From: Candidatus Zixiibacteriota bacterium
Lineage (GTDB): Bacteria; Zixibacteria; MSB-5A5; JAABVY01; JAHJOQ01
NCBI GenBank assembly: GCA_018820315.1
Contig: JAHJOQ010000029.1
Location: 1-38,112 of the forward strand
DNA length: 38,112 nucleotides
Reading direction: 5' to 3'
Made by a program: the position numbers and the translations under genes. The notes beneath the pieces were generated by a model that was given only the letters and a program-made list of their open reading frames with translations, did no database searches and was not told where the DNA came from. Below are positions 3,302 to 38,112 of this stretch, in pieces; within the stretch, counting starts at the first letter, position 1; every line of letters begins with the position of its first letter.

Positions 3302-4837
3302 CTAATCTGTCATTATCGTACGTATCACTTTTGCGATCTCATCCGGACGATCTTCCGCCGTTTTTTTCATCTGATCCACTAGACGCATTTTTTGTGGCTG
3401 CACAGACACCGGCGACTCCTGTTGTGGAGTCATAGGGTTGATTTTCGGCATCGGCGGTACATATTGCACAAATGCCGCGAACAATTTCTTGATTTTCTTC
3501 TTTCCATAGAAGAATAGAAATACTGCAGCCAGCAGCATCAGTACTTTCTTTCCCACATCCATGTAGAAACTTCGTGTAGAAATGTCATCAAGCGATTTCT
3601 GATCGTCCACAAGTGAGCGGCTGTCAAACTGCATACTCACAACTTCTATCTTATCATTTCTCGTCTCATCGTATCCAACGGCGTTCTTGACGAGCGCCGT
3701 GAGCCTGTTCATTTCTTCATCATCTCTGGGTTTGTATTCGACAACTCCTGCACCATCTTCTCCCTGGACTGTCTCATAGTGCCCGTCTACGAGTACAGCA
3801 ACGGTCAGCTTCTCGATATTGCCGACCGAATTGACAACTCGCTGAACCGTTCGGTTCACTTCGTAATTTGTGATGGAATTCTCAACGGTACTGCTGGTAT
3901 TTGTGGATGTGGAATCCAGTGTGTTCGACGACGCGTCGCTGTTGCTTTCTTCCGTTCTCTCTTCGCTGCGCACGGCCAGATTGTCAGGATCGTATTGCTC
4001 CAATGTTGTTTCTGACTGATTGAAGTTGAGGGACGCTGTCACTCTCACTATAGATTTACCGTTTCCAACAGAATTATCCAGAAGGGTCTGCGCTTTGTTT
4101 TCGAGGTATTTTTCGACATTCTTGCGTAGTTCGAGCTGAGTACCGGAGAGCGACGCAAGCTCATCTGTGCCTGTCGTCTGCGTCAGCAGGTTTCCGTTGT
4201 AATCGATTATCGATATGTTGTCGGGGCTCATCCCCTCTACTGATGCGGCTATGAGATGCGTGATACCGCGTATCTGTCTCGGAGTGACGGTGCTGCCTGT
4301 AGATAGTTTCAGCAGTACCGAGGCAGTTGGAGGCCGCTTGTCTTCCTCAAAAAGATGATCCTCAGGAATTACAACATGCACGCGAGCAGCATCTACATTG
4401 CCCAATGCCATGACAGATCTTGCAAGCTCACCCTCAAGCGCACGCCGGAAGTTGATTTTCTGCAGGAATTCGGTCATTCCGAGATTGGTCTGATCAAAAA
4501 TGGAATATCCCACAGTACCCGACTTGGGAAGCCCGAGAGCGGCCAACCGCATCCGTGCACTGTAAACATCGCCCGACGGAACCTTCACGGTATTACCGCC
4601 TTCAGCTATCTCGTGCTTGATACTTAACTCATCCAGACGGTCGATAACTTCAGCCACCGACTCTGAATCGAGGTCGGAGTAGAGAGTTACATACGTGACG
4701 CTCTTGAATACCCCGAAGAGAAAGAGCGCGGCTACCATAACGCCTGCAGCTACCGAAACCATCAGGACCATCTGCGACCCTGTCATAGATCGAATGATAG
4801 ATGAAAAATGATCGTAGTAATGCTTCATGAATTCCAT
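3302..4837 (-). CDS. fliF: Flagellar MS-ring protein FliF
   Basis: FliF assembles into the inner-membrane MS ring on which the rotor and export gate are built. The product has 511 residues, slightly short for the family. One transmembrane helix lies at about 23-44 and a second at about 432-445, bracketing the large periplasmic region with its ring-building motifs (RMRLAALGLPKSG-like region near 95-108). The cytoplasmic tail ends PDEIAKVIRTIMTD, the segment that clasps the FliG N-terminus. The region around 290-320 is rich in Ser/Thr/Asn and is probably the flexible beta-collar insertion. It lies between fliE (13 nt upstream) and fliG (4 nt downstream). Confidence 0.96.
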   Translation of the reverse strand: MEFMKHYYDHFSSIIRSMTGSQMVLMVSVAAGVMVAALFLFGVFKSVTYVTLYSDLDSESVAEVIDRLDELSIKHEIAEGGNTVKVPSGDVYSARMRLAALGLPKSGTVGYSIFDQTNLGMTEFLQKINFRRALEGELARSVMALGNVDAARVHVVIPEDHLFEEDKRPPTASVLLKLSTGSTVTPRQIRGITHLIAASVEGMSPDNISIIDYNGNLLTQTTGTDELASLSGTQLELRKNVEKYLENKAQTLLDNSVGNGKSIVRVTASLNFNQSETTLEQYDPDNLAVRSEERTEESNSDASSNTLDSTSTNTSSTVENSITNYEVNRTVQRVVNSVGNIEKLTVAVLVDGHYETVQGEDGAGVVEYKPRDDEEMNRLTALVKNAVGYDETRNDKIEVVSMQFDSRSLVDDQKSLDDISTRSFYMDVGKKVLMLLAAVFLFFYGKKKIKKLFAAFVQYVPPMPKINPMTPQQESPVSVQPQKMRLVDQMKKTAEDRPDEIAKVIRTIMTD

Positions 4838-4850
4838 GATATCAATCTAC

Positions 4851-5156
4851 CTAGGCTGGGGTTCGTATAATCTCTTTGTAAGATTCAACCAACTTATTGC
4901 GAATTTCCATCAAAAGCTCGAAACCTATGGAGGCTTCCTCAGACGCCAGCATAACCTGATGGACATCTGAGATCTCACCGGTCAGGAACTTATGTTCCAC
5001 ATCTGCTGCCTTGTGCTGTAAATCATTGACATCATTCACGAACGACTTCAGCACGCTCTTGAATGACTCATTCTCAGACGGTTTGACATCATCGGTACGC
5101 CTCGGAACAGGTAAACCGCTGATCTGAGATGCTATGTCAAGTTTAACAGGATTCAT
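4851..5156 (-). CDS. fliE: Flagellar hook-basal body protein FliE
   Basis: FliE joins the MS ring to the proximal rod and is among the first exported rod components. The product has 101 residues, the standard size. The C-terminal half carries the family pattern: LTGEISDVHQVMLASEEAS, then FELLMEIRNKLVESYKEI. The ATG at 5156 overlaps the stop of the preceding small gene as ATGA, so the two are probably translationally coupled. Confidence 0.95.
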   Translation of the reverse strand: MNPVKLDIASQISGLPVPRRTDDVKPSENESFKSVLKSFVNDVNDLQHKAADVEHKFLTGEISDVHQVMLASEEASIGFELLMEIRNKLVESYKEIIRTPA

Positions 5157-5428
5157 ACTCTAATGTCCAGTAATCTCCCGCGTTGACTGCTGACGCGCGA
5201 ATCGGAGTCAGCCTTGCGAGTGGTCGTTGTGCTAAATTTGTCAGAAAGAAACTGCTTCTCCGCCTTAGACAGCATGCTGAGGAAATCCGATCCTGTGATC
5301 TCCACTGAGGCTTTGCCTCTGCTCGCCCTGCCAACACTCTTTCCGGAATTTCCTTGCTGTTGAGCAGCTACTCTGCCGGGATCAGGGATATTTCTGTATG
5401 CCTGAATTAGATTCGGATTTATCTTCAT
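5153..5428 (-). CDS. Unrecognised 91-aa protein in the flagellar operon
   Basis: I do not recognise this protein. It has a strong ribosome binding site (AGGAGG, 6 nt before the ATG), lies 10 nt after flgC and overlaps fliE as ATGA, so it is a genuine operon member. The predicted product has 91 residues, is basic, and has no signal peptide or membrane segment. It begins MKINPNLIQAYRNIPDPGR, has a Gln/Gly/Ser/Arg-rich low-complexity part (about 22-40), then one amphipathic helix-like block (DFLSMLSKAEKQFLSDKF, 48-65), a Thr/Ser/Arg linker, and ends GRLLDIRV. The MKIN start and the disordered-then-helix layout are faintly like FlgM anti-sigma factors, but the FlgM C-terminal sigma-binding pattern is not evident. 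A chaperone, rod-assembly or regulatory role is speculation from context. Confidence 0.8.
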   Translation of the reverse strand: MKINPNLIQAYRNIPDPGRVAAQQQGNSGKSVGRASRGKASVEITGSDFLSMLSKAEKQFLSDKFSTTTTRKADSDSRVSSQRGRLLDIRV

Positions 5429-5438
5429 TCAAATCCTC

Positions 5439-5933
5439 CTATATTCCCATTGCTTCGGAGACCATTTCCTTGGTTGCACTGACTGCCGTTACATTGGCCT
5501 CGAATGCCCGTGATGCGACCATCATGTTGACCATCTCCGTTACGAGATTGATATCCGGCATCGCTACGTAGCCATCTCCATCGGCGTCAGGATGAGTCGG
5601 ATCGTAGACCATATTGATCTCAGGACGACGGTTCGTAATGACTCTGCCCTTCGCTTCTGAGACTTCCACGTTCTGCGTACTGAATCTCCTGACACTGGGT
5701 TTGTGCTTGTCATGAGTCTGAGCAAGATTGAGCCTTGCTCTCTTGAATTCTCCGGAGAAGTTCATCGACTGATCATCAGCCTCGATCTGCACGTTCTTGC
5801 GGCGGTATGGTCCCCCCTCAGGAGTACGAGTCGTCTCCGCGTTGGCTATATTTTCTGCGGTAGCGTTCAGCTTCAGCCGCTGGACAGCCATGCCGGAACC
5901 TGATATCTTGAGTGCAGAGAAGAATTCGCTCAT
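5439..5933 (-). CDS. flgC: Flagellar basal-body rod protein FlgC
   Basis: FlgC is a proximal rod subunit exported through the flagellar type III system. The product has 164 residues, a little longer than the common 135-150. The N-terminal rod signature is clear (NATAENIANAETTRTPEGGPY, about 23-43). The C-terminal signature YDPTHPDADGDGYVAMPD is followed by EMVNMMVASRAFEANVTA and a terminal helix, the parts that form the rod coiled-coil domain. A central insert of about 20 residues with RRFSTQNVEVSEAKG accounts for the extra length. It starts at ATG 5933, 19 nt after flgB. Confidence 0.97.
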   Translation of the reverse strand: MSEFFSALKISGSGMAVQRLKLNATAENIANAETTRTPEGGPYRRKNVQIEADDQSMNFSGEFKRARLNLAQTHDKHKPSVRRFSTQNVEVSEAKGRVITNRRPEINMVYDPTHPDADGDGYVAMPDINLVTEMVNMMVASRAFEANVTAVSATKEMVSEAMGI

Positions 5934-5952: not shown

Positions 5953-6375
5953 TTAGAGTGGACGTCCTCTGATGGCCGATTTCAAAGCTTTGAATTTGTT
6001 GCCTGCGAGTTTGGCTGCCAGTTCGTAGACAAGCTGATTCTGAGCCAGATCGCCCATTTCGCGATCGATATCGACAGAGTTGACACCATTAGATTCATCA
6101 GTCTCCTCAGCAACCTTTACTTTCGGTGGAGATGCCTTCGATGACCTCAGCGGAATGTGCCCCGGGTGAGTCGTGGTGACTTTCATATGCTCCGGTTTGA
6201 GCGCCTTGCGAAGCTCAGCATCAAAATCGATAGATTTTGATTTGTAGCCTGGCGTGGTGACATTCGCAACGTTCGATGCTATCAACTTATGTCTTAAGGA
6301 AGATAGATCAAGCATGCGCTTGAGCACCGGGATCGAAGTTTTCTGAATAATCGCTTTGTTAATTATGTTGCTCAT
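5953..6375 (-). CDS. flgB: Flagellar basal-body rod protein FlgB
   Basis: FlgB is a proximal rod subunit and the first gene of this flagellar operon. The product has 140 residues from the ATG at 6375, where GGAGAA lies 7-8 nt upstream. A longer open frame continues upstream to 6801, but it would run through the promoter, the terminator and rplQ, so it is rejected. The signature ASNVANVTTPGYKSKSIDF sits near residues 33-51, and the C-terminal helix includes VDIDREMGDLAQNQLVYE. Translation would begin about 13 nt into the mRNA if the sigma-54 type promoter at 6399-6415 is used. Confidence 0.96.
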   Translation of the reverse strand: MSNIINKAIIQKTSIPVLKRMLDLSSLRHKLIASNVANVTTPGYKSKSIDFDAELRKALKPEHMKVTTTHPGHIPLRSSKASPPKVKVAEETDESNGVNSVDIDREMGDLAQNQLVYELAAKLAGNKFKALKSAIRGRPL

Positions 6376-6398
6376 GCTAATTCTCCGGCAAATACAAT

Positions 6399-6415
6399 TG
6401 CAAGTGTGGTGCCAA
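6399..6415 (-). promoter_or_regulatory. Sigma-54 type (-24/-12) promoter of flgB operon
   Basis: Read on the minus strand, the sequence is TTGGCAC-CACAC-TTGCA. This matches the RpoN consensus TGGCAC-N5-TTGCA exactly, with GG at 6413/6412 and GC at 6401/6400, 12 bases apart. The predicted start of transcription is near 6388, giving a leader of about 13 nt that contains the GGAGAA ribosome binding site of flgB. Sigma-54 promoters need an enhancer-binding ATPase, and no rpoN or activator gene is in this window. An imperfect inverted repeat (GTACC-N4-GTTAC, 6441-6454) lies upstream and could be an activator site, but that is weak. Confidence 0.8.
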
Positions 6416-6549
6416 TGTGCAGATACAGCGCAGAGCATTCGTAACGTATGGTACGACAGCACATTACAGCAGGGTGCGCCGCATGGTCGCACAAGCGAAT
6501 CCAGACTGGAGCGGAATAATTTTCCTACCGGGGGGAAATATATAGAACG

Positions 6550-6573
6550 AAAAAGGCGGTCAGTGACCGCCTT
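6550..6573 (-). terminator. Intrinsic terminator after rplQ
   Basis: On the minus strand an 8-bp stem AAGGCGGT/ACCGCCTT (extendable to 10 bp) encloses a 5-nt loop CACTG and runs into five T residues (6554-6550). It sits 29 nt beyond the rplQ stop and upstream of the flgB promoter. It therefore separates the ribosomal cluster from the flagellar operon. Confidence 0.88.
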
Positions 6574-6601
6574 CAAATCGCCAGTTAACAGCGCTGATTT
6601 G

Positions 6602-7165
6602 TCAGGAATCAGCCTTCTTGTCGGAACCCTCTGGCTCATCGCCAGAAGAAGGTTCCTCACTCTGAACTTCAGACTCCGTCGATGCCGGCTCAGCTTCCAC
6701 AGTCTCTGCTGTCTCAGCCTTTGCCTTCTTCGCGGAAGGAGCAGCTTTCTTGGTGGCTTTCGCCTTCTTGCTCTTGCCCTTCTTAGCTGTTTCATCATCA
6801 TCGACGTGAGAGGCGGAAATAAGTTCGATCAAAACCAGTTCCGCGCCATCACCCTGCCGAACTCCGATTCTCATGATCCTGGAGTATCCCGAATTTCTGT
6901 CCATCATTTCGGGGGCGATTTCATCGAAGAGCTTCTTGAGGAGTTCTTTGCTCTTGATTGTCTTGGCTGCGAGTCGTCGGGCGCTGACGGTATTCTCTTT
7001 GGCCGTGCTGACCAGTTTGTCGATCACCGGCTTGAGAGCCTTCGCCTTTGACTCAGTCGTTTTGATCCTTCTGTGTGTAATCAAAGCTTGAGCCAGATTC
7101 GATATCAGGGCTTCTCGATGAGCTTTTGGCCGTTCCAGCTTATGAATCTTCTTCCCATGTCGCAT
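6602..7165 (-). CDS. rplQ: 50S ribosomal protein L17 with long C-terminal tail
   Basis: L17 lies near the peptide exit tunnel of the large subunit. Residues 1-118 form a complete L17, starting MRHGKKIHKLERPKAHREAL and including the SRIMRIGVRQGDGAEL motif. The product is 187 residues, against about 115-130 in many bacteria. Residues 120-187 form an extra tail: first Lys/Ala-rich (127-150), then Glu/Ser/Pro-rich and acidic. It is probably disordered. It is the last gene of the alpha block, 6 nt after rpoA, and is followed by an intrinsic terminator. Confidence 0.97.
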   Translation of the reverse strand: MRHGKKIHKLERPKAHREALISNLAQALITHRRIKTTESKAKALKPVIDKLVSTAKENTVSARRLAAKTIKSKELLKKLFDEIAPEMMDRNSGYSRIMRIGVRQGDGAELVLIELISASHVDDDETAKKGKSKKAKATKKAAPSAKKAKAETAETVEAEPASTESEVQSEEPSSGDEPEGSDKKADS

Positions 7166-7171
7166 TATCGA

Positions 7172-8158
7172 CTAATCCTTCTTTCTTGATTCGAGATACT
7201 TCTCGACATCCATTCCAAACGAAAGCCCGAGCTCATCCAGAATAGCATTAAGTTCATTGAGCGACTTCCGTCCGAAATTCCTGTACTTCAGCATCTCGGA
7301 TTCAGTCCGGCGCACGAGATCGCCCAGGATCTGGATATTGGCGGCCCTGAGGCAGTTCGACGATCTGACAGAAAGCTCGAGTTCGTCGACACGCGTTTGG
7401 AGAAGCTGCCTGATTCGCAGAGTTTCCTCATCCTCTTCTTGTTCTTCTTCGACTTCAATCTCTTCCTCGGTGTGGATGAAGAACTGAAGATGATCTTTGA
7501 GCAGTTTTGCAGCATAACCGAGAGCATCCTCAGGTGTAACCACTCCATTGGTGGATACTTCCATCGTAAGGCGATCATAATCCGTTCTCTGCCCTACTCG
7601 TGTATTCTCAACAACGTAGTTCACCTTGACGACCGGTGAGAAAAGAGAATCGACAAATATCGTCCCTGTCGGAGCATCGGGGCGTTTATTCTGCTCCGAA
7701 AGCACATAACTCCGGCCGGTGTCGATGTCGAGTTCAAGTCTCAGCTTGGTGTCGTCGGTTAACTCAACAAGATGTTGATCTTTGTTTATGATCTCGATTT
7801 CAGGAGGACACTGCAGGTCCTTTGCGGAATACTTGCCCTTGCCGTCGCATTCCAGCGTGATCGTCTTCATCTCATCCGAATCCATGCTCACCCAGAGCTT
7901 CTTCACATTGAGGACTATGTCAGTAACATCCTCGTAGACTCCGGGGATACTGGAGAATTCATGCTGAATTCCCTCGATTCGCATCGAGACAACAGCCGAC
8001 CCTTGCAGCGAGGAGAGCAGGATCCGTCTCAGAGCGTTGCCAATGGTGTTTCCAAAGCCGCGCTCCAACGGCTCCATCACGTATCTACCGAAAAACAGCG
8101 GGGTATCAACCTCGTCCCTGGCGACCTCTCTCGGCATCTGAAGATTTTTCCATTTCAT
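7172..8158 (-). CDS. rpoA: RNA polymerase alpha subunit
   Basis: Alpha dimerises to start assembly of core RNA polymerase and contacts UP elements and activators. The product has 328 residues. The N-terminal assembly domain spans about 1-230 ([17 protein letters not shown] at 35-51). An unusually acidic linker of Glu residues covers 231-245. The C-terminal domain (256-318) has VRSSNCL with Arg265 in the DNA-contact position and [22 protein letters not shown]. It starts at ATG 8158, 18 nt after rpsD, and is followed by rplQ as in the usual alpha operon. Confidence 0.99.
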
Positions 8159-8176
8159 GAATACAGCCTCCCTATC

Positions 8177-8806
8177 CTACTTGGAGTAGAGCTCCACAAT
8201 GAGCTGTTCTGAAACGACGACTGGAATGTCGGCACGTTTCGGGACTTCAAGCAATTCACCCTCGAGTGCGGCCTTGTTGAGACGCAGCCATGGAATATCC
8301 ACTGAGCGGTCTGAATCTCTCAGAGCAGAATGGATTAGATCGAGATTCTTGCTCTTCTCGCGGACCTTGACAATGTCTCCTGGACGCAATGTGAAGGACG
8401 GGATATCGACGATTCGGTCATTAACCGTAAAATGACGGTGACTGACCAACTGCCTTGCCGAGTTTCGCGACGGTGCGAAACCGAGCCGATAGACGAAGTT
8501 ATCCAAACGTCTCTCGAGAAAAGAAAGCAGGTTTTCACCCGTGATTCCTTTCGCCCGGGCTGCCTTGACATAGTAGTTGTGGAACTGCTTCTCCAGGATG
8601 CCATAGATCCTACGGACTTTCTGCTTTTCGCGCAATTGGATTCCATACCCGGAGACTTTTCGTCTCATGTTCTGCCCATGCTGTCCCGGTGGATAGCCCC
8701 TGCGCTCATAGGAACATTTCTCAGTACTGCACCGGCTTCCCTTCAGAAAGAGCTTCTCTCCTTCACGCCTGCACAGTTTGCAAACTGCATTTGTATATCT
8801 TGCCAT
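8177..8806 (-). CDS. rpsD: 30S ribosomal protein S4 (zinc-binding form)
   Basis: S4 nucleates small-subunit assembly on 16S rRNA and guards translational accuracy. The product has 209 residues. Four cysteines at 9, 12, 26 and 31 form the zinc site of the C+ type of S4. The S4 RNA-binding domain follows from about residue 97 ([22 protein letters not shown]). The start is ATG 8806. In other bacteria S4 is the translational regulator of the alpha operon; no such site was identified here. Confidence 0.98.
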
Positions 8807-22178: not shown

Positions 22179-22294
22179 AACTTACTCCAGAATCTCCGTT
22201 ACGACACCGGCTCCGACGGTACGACCGCCTTCGCGGATAGCGAAACGAAGCTCTTTCTCCATCGCTACTGCTGTGTGAAGCTCCACTTCCATCG
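22176..22294. repeat. 119-bp exact repeat, copy 1 (tuf 3' end)
   Basis: This stretch, from the rpsJ start codon through the tuf stop into tuf, is identical base for base to 37994-38112 as far as the window shows. The identity stops exactly at the start codon of the downstream gene (c at 22175 versus g at 37993). The repeat probably extends further into the second tuf gene beyond the right edge. Confidence 0.95.
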
Positions 22295-23387
22295 TGATAT
22301 TGTCACCAGGCATTACCATCTCTACGCCGTCAGGTAACTTGATCGAACCTGTTACATCTGTCGTACGAAGATAAAACTGTGGGCGGTAACCGTTGAAAAA
22401 CGGCGTGTGACGGCCACCCTCCTCCTTCTTCAGCACGTAAACCTCTCCGTTGAACTTCTTGTGAGGTGTGATGCTGCCGACTTTCGCCACTACCTGACCA
22501 CGCTCGATCTCGTCCTTGTCAACTCCACGAAGAAGTAATCCAACGTTGTCGCCAGCTTCTCCCGAATCAAGTATCTTACGGAACATCTCTATACCGGTCA
22601 CTACCGTCTTGCGTGTGTCACGGAATCCGACTAACTCTACTTCCGTACCTGTGTTGATCGTCCCGCGCTCTATACGACCCGTCGCTACCGTACCACGGCC
22701 CGTTATCGAAAATACGTCCTCAACCGGCATCAAGAATGGCTTGTCCTTGTCCCGCTGGGGCTCCGGTATATAAGTGTCGCATGCCTCCATAAGCTCGTAT
22801 ACGCTCTTGAATGCAGGATCGTCCTTCACATCAGGATTCGACGCCTGTGTCATTGCCTCCAAAGCACTGCCACGGATCACAGGAATGTCATCACCAGGAA
22901 ATTCATACGCCGACAATAAGTCCCGTACCTCAAGCTCCACTAAATCCAAAAGCTCCGGATCATCTACCTGATCTACCTTGTTCATGTATACGATGATGAA
23001 TGGCACCCCTACCTGACGAGCCAAAAGAATGTGCTCACGCGTCTGTGGCATCGGACCGTCAGCAGCAGATACTACAAGTATCGCTCCATCCATCTGTGCT
23101 GCTCCCGTGATCATGTTCTTGATGTAATCAGCATGTCCCGGACAGTCTACATGCGCATAATGACGATTCTTCGTCTCGTACTCAACATGCGCCGTCGCAA
23201 TCGTGATTCCACGCTCACGCTCCTCCGGTGCATTGTCAATCGAATCAAATGATCGGATCGCACTCAATCCAGAACGCGATAAAATCATCGTGATCGCTGC
23301 CGTCAACGTCGTCTTGCCGTGATCTACATGACCTATCGTCCCGACGTTGACATGCGGCTTCGTCCTCTTAAATTTTTCCTTAGCCAT
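22182..23387 (-). CDS. tuf: Translation elongation factor Tu (complete copy)
   Basis: EF-Tu delivers aminoacyl-tRNA to the ribosome in a GTP-dependent way. The product has 401 residues. The G motifs are intact: GHVDHGKT (19-26), RERGITI (57-63), DCPGH (81-85) and NKVD (136-139). Domains 2 and 3 follow normally, ending [10 protein letters not shown]. It lies between fusA and rpsJ and has a plausible promoter in the 102-nt gap upstream. A second copy enters the window at its right end. Confidence 0.99.
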
Positions 23388-37757: not shown

Positions 37758-37834
37758 TGGCAGGTCTGGAGGGACTTGAACCCCCAACCCCCGGTTTTGG
37801 AGACCGGTGCTCTAGCCAATTGAGCTACAGACCT
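37758..37834 (-). tRNA. trnW: tRNA-Trp (anticodon CCA)
   Basis: A complete cloverleaf on the minus strand: acceptor AGGTCTG/CAGACCT, D-arm GCTC/GAGC, anticodon stem CCGGT/ACCGG with loop CTCCAAA (anticodon CCA), T-arm GGGGG/CCCTC with TTCAAGT loop, discriminator G and an encoded 3' CCA. Total 77 nt. It lies between rpmG and secE, a common location. Confidence 0.97.
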
Positions 37835-37843
37835 GTCAATCTC

Positions 37844-37996
37844 TCAGCGAGTCTCCTTGTGCAACGTATGCTTATTGCAGAACGGGCAGTACTTCTTGAA
37901 GCTCTGCCTGTCCGGATGCTTGCGCTTATTCTTGTCAGTCGTGTAGTTGCGGCGTTTACAATCGCCGCATGCCAGGATCATCAGCTCTCTCGGCAT
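37844..37996 (-). CDS. rpmG: 50S ribosomal protein L33 (zinc-binding)
   Basis: A small gene of 50 codons, [20 protein letters not shown] and on to [11 protein letters not shown]. Four cysteines at 10, 13, 37 and 40 form a zinc ribbon, so this is the C+ form of L33. The ATG at 37996 uses GGAG in the last tuf codon. It is followed by tRNA-Trp. Confidence 0.96.
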
Positions 37997-38112
37997 AACT
38001 TACTCCAGAATCTCCGTTACGACACCGGCTCCGACGGTACGACCGCCTTCGCGGATAGCGAAACGAAGCTCTTTCTCCATCGCTACTGCTGTGTGAAGCT
38101 CCACTTCCATCG
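37994..38112. repeat. 119-bp exact repeat, copy 2 (second tuf 3' end)
   Basis: Identical to 22176-22294, in the same orientation, 15818 bp away. It begins exactly at the rpmG start codon and runs to the window edge inside the second tuf gene. Confidence 0.95.
38000..38112 (-). CDS. tuf: Translation elongation factor Tu, second copy (3' end only)
   Basis: Only the last 36 codons and stop are in the window ([20 protein letters not shown] to [10 protein letters not shown]). The DNA is identical to the end of the complete tuf at 22182-23387. The rest lies beyond the right edge. Two tuf copies are common in bacteria; one heads the rpmG-tRNA-Trp-secE-nusG block and the other the S10 block. Confidence 0.95.

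Follow-up and report, generated by a model that had tools for sequence, protein, structure and literature searches.

The core operons of the flagellum are, to our knowledge, nearly the same everywhere, and the locus described here raises the question of what an additional small gene between flgC and fliE encodes. The window, that is, the whole analysed stretch of 38,112 nucleotides, comes from Candidatus Zixiibacteriota, and its nearest named relatives, found via FlgC, were two Candidatus Zixiibacteriota MAGs (L058 and L059). The genes run in the order rplQ - flgB - flgC - gap gene - fliE - fliF - fliG - fliH - fliI - fliJ, and the features of the region are listed in the table below. Direct reading of the sequence revealed that the Shine-Dalgarno site of the gap gene overlaps the flgC stop codon (TAGGAGGATTTGAATG) and is strong, with the stretch TAGGAGGATTTGA-ATG leading to the start codon. 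The original prediction of a real small gene with an AGGAGG site and ATGA coupling to fliE was thus borne out, both signals being present, and the Pfam assignments of FlgC, FliE and FliF, followed by fliG to fliJ, agreed with the standard flgBC-fliEFGHIJ order described around it. At 5953-8806 of the window, flgB stands directly after rplQ-rpoA-rpsD, so that a ribosomal and a flagellar operon are joined; an rplQ-like end also precedes flgB in a genome of the same family (G003), and in G023 motAB stands at this place.

Table. Features of the flgB-fliF region and of a tRNA gene of the window (positions are those of the whole window)
Feature	Position	Strand	Basis or remark
flgB	5953..6375	minus	start picked by comparison with relatives
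flgC	5439..5933	minus	Pfam Flg_bb_rod and Flg_bbr_C
AGGAGG ribosome-binding site of the gap gene, 6 nt 5' of ATG	5435..5440	minus	sequence
Gap gene (X, between flgC and fliE), 91 aa	5153..5428	minus	ORF list; without known family
N-terminal conserved segment MKINPNLIQAYR, phylum consensus MKINPxGIQxYxQ	5393..5428	minus	alignments A1, A2 and A3
Central helix, residues 46-66, FLSMLSKAEKQFLSDKF, consensus LSxEExxALxxLFxxF	5231..5293	minus	alignments; low-confidence AF2
C-terminal tail GRLLDIRV-COOH, most conserved part, FliK-like	5156..5179	minus	A3 alignment
ATGA overlap of gap gene stop (TGA) and fliE start (ATG), translational coupling	5153..5156	minus	sequence
fliE	4851..5156	minus	PF02049 (E=2.6e-25), TIGR00205
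fliF	3302..4837	minus	PF01514 and PF08345
tRNA-Trp (cca)	37758-37834	minus	near nusG/rpl genes

Comparisons with known families gave chance-level matches only in Pfam, NCBIfam and PDB, whether single members or a set of 72 members was used, and no match in PHROGs for the three members tested. These results agree with the original view that no family could be assigned, the profile search with the 72 members having returned no clear match to a known flagellar family, and by such comparisons the gap gene is a member of a new family. A search for related loci with the single 91-aa protein returned nothing, because the family is too divergent, and synteny via fliE was used instead. No literature on the flagella of Zixibacteria was found. 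Identity with FliE, the neighbouring and coupled gene of another family, was rejected, as PF02049 matched neither the 91-aa protein nor any of the 72 members; the rod-binding domain of FlgJ was likewise without a match among the 72 members, and a FlgJ-like gene was recognised by eye as a separate gene in G023. Membership in FliK was also rejected: PF02120 (the Flg_hook C-terminal core) matched none of the 72 members, hhalign detected no homology to FliK-C, and the long N-terminal ruler and linker of FliK are absent, the gap proteins having 73-161 aa versus about 370-730 aa for the open frames in relatives.

Two other small flagellar proteins were considered. The gap protein is small and disordered and starts with MKIN, as does FlgM (PF04316), features that would suit a distant FlgM-like anti-sigma-28 regulator, one of the roles originally suggested; however, PF04316 matched 0/72 members, the C-terminal helices by which FlgM binds sigma-28 are absent, the gene lies in an early operon, and a separate FlgM-like gene follows flgN in G023 as well as on contig C106 (L168) of the window's genome. 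This part of the original prediction was therefore not sustained, FlgM identity being ruled out by the profile non-matches and the separate genes, and a distant relationship is highly improbable. FlaG (PF03646), also a small flagellar protein, has tails of the form G-x-h-h-D-x-x-[AVG] with the spacing of the gap tail, and both this tail and the -EE- at the start of the helix could be read as those of a shortened FlaG. The hhalign probability was, however, 0.2%, PF03646 did not match, the VIRQIP core is missing and a true FlaG is encoded on another contig of the same genome (C61), so that identity with FlaG was ruled out on the same grounds and a FlaG relative is just as improbable. With FliK on contig C30, the gap gene replaces none of the FlgM-like, FlaG and FliK genes of the window's genome, since each is present separately. 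The complete chromosome of G023 has a single cluster with the customary flagellar genes, as identified by eye: motAB, the rod genes, FliK, FlgD, FlgE, FliL-R, FlhB, FlhA, FlhF, FlhG and FliA, together with FlgJ, FlgN, FliD, FliS and a FlgM-like gene. As FliK, FlgM-like and FlgJ-like genes exist separately, the gap gene represents an added function.

The distribution of the gene was established from the loci of fliE. A gene at the same position, 32-37% identical, was present in three genomes of the window's family. The FliE search over 132 Zixibacteria genomes detected fliE in 97, and reading of all those loci revealed that each intact flgC-fliE interval of the phylum contains a single ORF, about 73-161 aa long, whose ending is the same throughout. 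When a profile (A3) built from 72 gap-gene members was searched across the phylum, exactly one gene per genome was found in 94 genomes (in G019 the profile matched one gene in two pieces). It stands immediately upstream of fliE in every case where both are on one contig, and no paralogues were detected elsewhere in the genome. Thus the gap gene is present in 94 of the 97 fliE-positive genomes (92 were found with the profile, G005 and G017 on inspection of the loci), and contig ends cut the locus in two further ones (G068 and G106). In G037 (L044), the first gap-gene codons lead directly into fliE, an apparent deletion; this assembly of 720 contigs, possibly incomplete, gave no FliK match either. 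Among the 35 genomes in which fliE was undetected, only two, both about 70% complete, carried the gap gene (G065 and G112). ATGA or close coupling of the gap gene to fliE was observed in many genomes, and fliE comes immediately after flgC in the Desulfobacterota and Bacteriovoracaceae loci examined. A homologue is therefore found in the flgC-fliE gap of relatives, and the proposal of a lineage-specific gene tied to the rod/FliE operon holds phylum-wide. In two loci of genus g26 (L052 and L053), about 280-350 bp of extra DNA separates flgC from the gap gene; its translation gives repeat-like stretches such as 'VIPAKAGIQ' and 'GEAPAEP', and it is likely a dispersed repeat inserted in this genus.

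Short length, low complexity and the lack of a database match might suggest a spurious ORF or a remnant. Against this stand the position conserved across fliE-bearing families, the strong Shine-Dalgarno site and dN/dS values of 0.04-0.27 (14 close pairs where these could be computed), which demonstrate purifying selection; with the phylum-wide profile search, the dN/dS values rule out a spurious ORF, a reading whose probability is negligible. The gap gene is a flagellar gene that occurs phylum-wide in single copy, is under constraint and belongs to a new family. Since it is a conserved single-copy gene of the flagellar operon that co-occurs with fliE, its product can be classed as an accessory protein of the flagellum encoded in the rod operon.

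Alignment of the family revealed a conserved N-terminus, a variable middle that is probably disordered, one helix and a fixed ending. The MKIN start resembles the starts of Zixibacteria FlgM and FlgJ. A helix had been predicted at about residues 48-65, and the aligned helix lies close to this; the AlphaFold2 model placed helices at 5-12, 46-51 and 55-64 with the rest disordered, although it was built from three sequences (mean pLDDT 53) and is too weak for use beyond the helix. No hydrophobic segment was visible by inspection, as expected from the original statement that the protein lacks a membrane segment. The GRLLDIRV end, described as conserved from the single sequence, proved to be so throughout A3: G occupies -8 in 72/72 members, D occupies -4 in 71/72, both -5 and -3 are hydrophobic in 72/72, and the family motif is G-x-x-[ILV]-D-[IVLF]-x-[AVIL]. 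In families f3 and f15 the helix motif is lost while the tail is kept and fliE is intact; this retention, together with the conservation in A3, indicates that the tail is the part held most firmly by selection. In G019 (L050, about 934-1417 of the reverse strand), the gap gene encodes about 161 aa with a doubled LS..E....LF helix motif. In five loci of family f18 (L106, L116, L120, L137 and L140), the tail reads TG-x-[KR]-[VL]-D-[LFV]-[TK]-G, with a terminal glycine as in some FlaG tails.

Beyond what had been predicted, the conserved end of the gap protein resembles the functional tail of FliK, the hook-length control protein. The FliK tails of Zixibacteria follow the pattern G-x-[ILV]-[ND]-hydrophobic-x-A, with C-termini such as LSGHLNLVA (G000), GRINLFA (G005), KGWIDFKA (G023) and SVDVVA (G033), and FliK of E. 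coli ends in GVDIFA. In five genomes from other lineages the FliK tails were GLSVRI, IVDYYA, EINCLA and GRLSFFV (twice). A loose version of the motif was present in 35/35 tabulated FliK tails, a table that left out the Bacteriovoracaceae FliK, and in 67/72 gap tails and 0/303 other genes of G023, this pattern having been set after the tails had been seen. For tails of the type hydrophobic-[DN]-hydrophobic-x-[AVI], the strict motif was found in 57/72 gap tails and 26/35 FliK tails, with an interior frequency of 0.0018. The resemblance was noticed post hoc and concerns a short motif. In the Bacteriovoracaceae loci (L209-L216), FliK is without the usual terminal motif and mostly ends in -AA; judged from the tails compared, the FliK motif is widespread but not universal. 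In family f11, the gap tail GSFVDIKI nearly coincides with the FliK tail GWIDFKA. Covariation between individual residues of the gap tails and those of the FliK tails was suggestive in f11, f3 and f15 and absent in f8, and was excluded from the evidence. Residue preferences differ: position -4 is usually N in FliK and D in gap tails, and position -2 is usually hydrophobic in FliK and K in gap tails. Moreover, the FlaG tails of Zixibacteria agree with the gap tails in the G-8 and D-4 residues, and the motif is thus not specific to FliK and a partner other than FlhB is possible.

The last five residues of FliK are important for export switching (PMC10965912), and an interaction with FlhB-CCD has been proposed for them (PMC13344023). 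The NPTH cleavage site is retained in FlhB of G023, and from the tail motif, the FliK tail literature and this retained site we infer that the FliK-like tail might be used at the export gate. The gap protein would then be a single-copy protein for flagellar assembly in Zixibacteria, produced alongside FlgB, FlgC and FliE, the rod-base proteins that are exported first, and mostly disordered apart from its conserved N-terminus, amphipathic helix and fixed C-terminal tail. During rod assembly this tail would act at FlhB, and the protein might serve as a checkpoint or competitor, keeping the rod/hook export state in place or setting its timing until FliK takes over. That the gap protein is a small rod-stage export-gate factor acting via its tail at FlhB is our tentative preference among the readings and a reasonable possibility; the stricter version, in which a FliK-type switch peptide acts on FlhB before the hook stage as a dedicated checkpoint and second user of the FliK site, is rather doubtful.

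Position and coupling could also be read as those of a rod/MS-ring assembly factor or a FliE-specific chaperone, binding FliE (or FlgB/FlgC) via the helix or the C-terminal strand and delivering or stabilising it at the FliF/FliP/FliR site, in which case the FliK resemblance would be convergent. The strict flgC-fliE position, the translational coupling to fliE and the co-occurrence with it favour such a factor, but f3 and f15, in which fliE is intact, lack the central helix that would naturally form the chaperone surface, a partner cannot be named from operon position alone, and FliE of Salmonella is not known to need a dedicated chaperone; we consider this explanation possible, if somewhat doubtful. 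Alternatively, the gap protein might be exported as a minor structural component of the rod base or act as an adaptor that links FliE to FlgB/FlgC. This would suit the rod-gene operon and the MKIN-type N-terminus shared with FlgM and FlgJ of the phylum, yet the protein has no D0-type paired helices, is of low complexity and is very uneven in length and sequence outside the tail, which makes a structural part unlikely.

The gap protein shares with FliK the flagellar operon and a short, disordered tail ending in hydrophobic-[DN]-hydrophobic-x-[A/V], as in Zixibacteria and E. coli, whereas it has no ruler or Flg_hook domain, is several times shorter, lacks profile homology, has the fixed G-8 and D-4 and is encoded with the rod genes. 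Its proposed role, keeping the export gate in an early mode, would be similar to that of Flk (Fluke), the inhibitor of premature switching in enterobacteria; Flk is, however, a larger, membrane-anchored protein, whereas inspection of the gap protein showed no hydrophobic segment. Nearly every flagellated Zixibacteria genome thus adds an obligatory-looking gene, at a fixed place, to the first stage of the assembly pathway. If the tail does use the FliK site, the export-specificity switch, which has long been a problem in the field, would have a second ligand in nature, and this would offer a direct route to testing what the last five residues of FliK do.

At the right end of the contig, the stretch at approximately 37990-38112 of the window duplicates the tuf 3' end (22182-23387, minus strand), judging by identical antisense translations, and is probably a second tuf copy at which the assembly broke.
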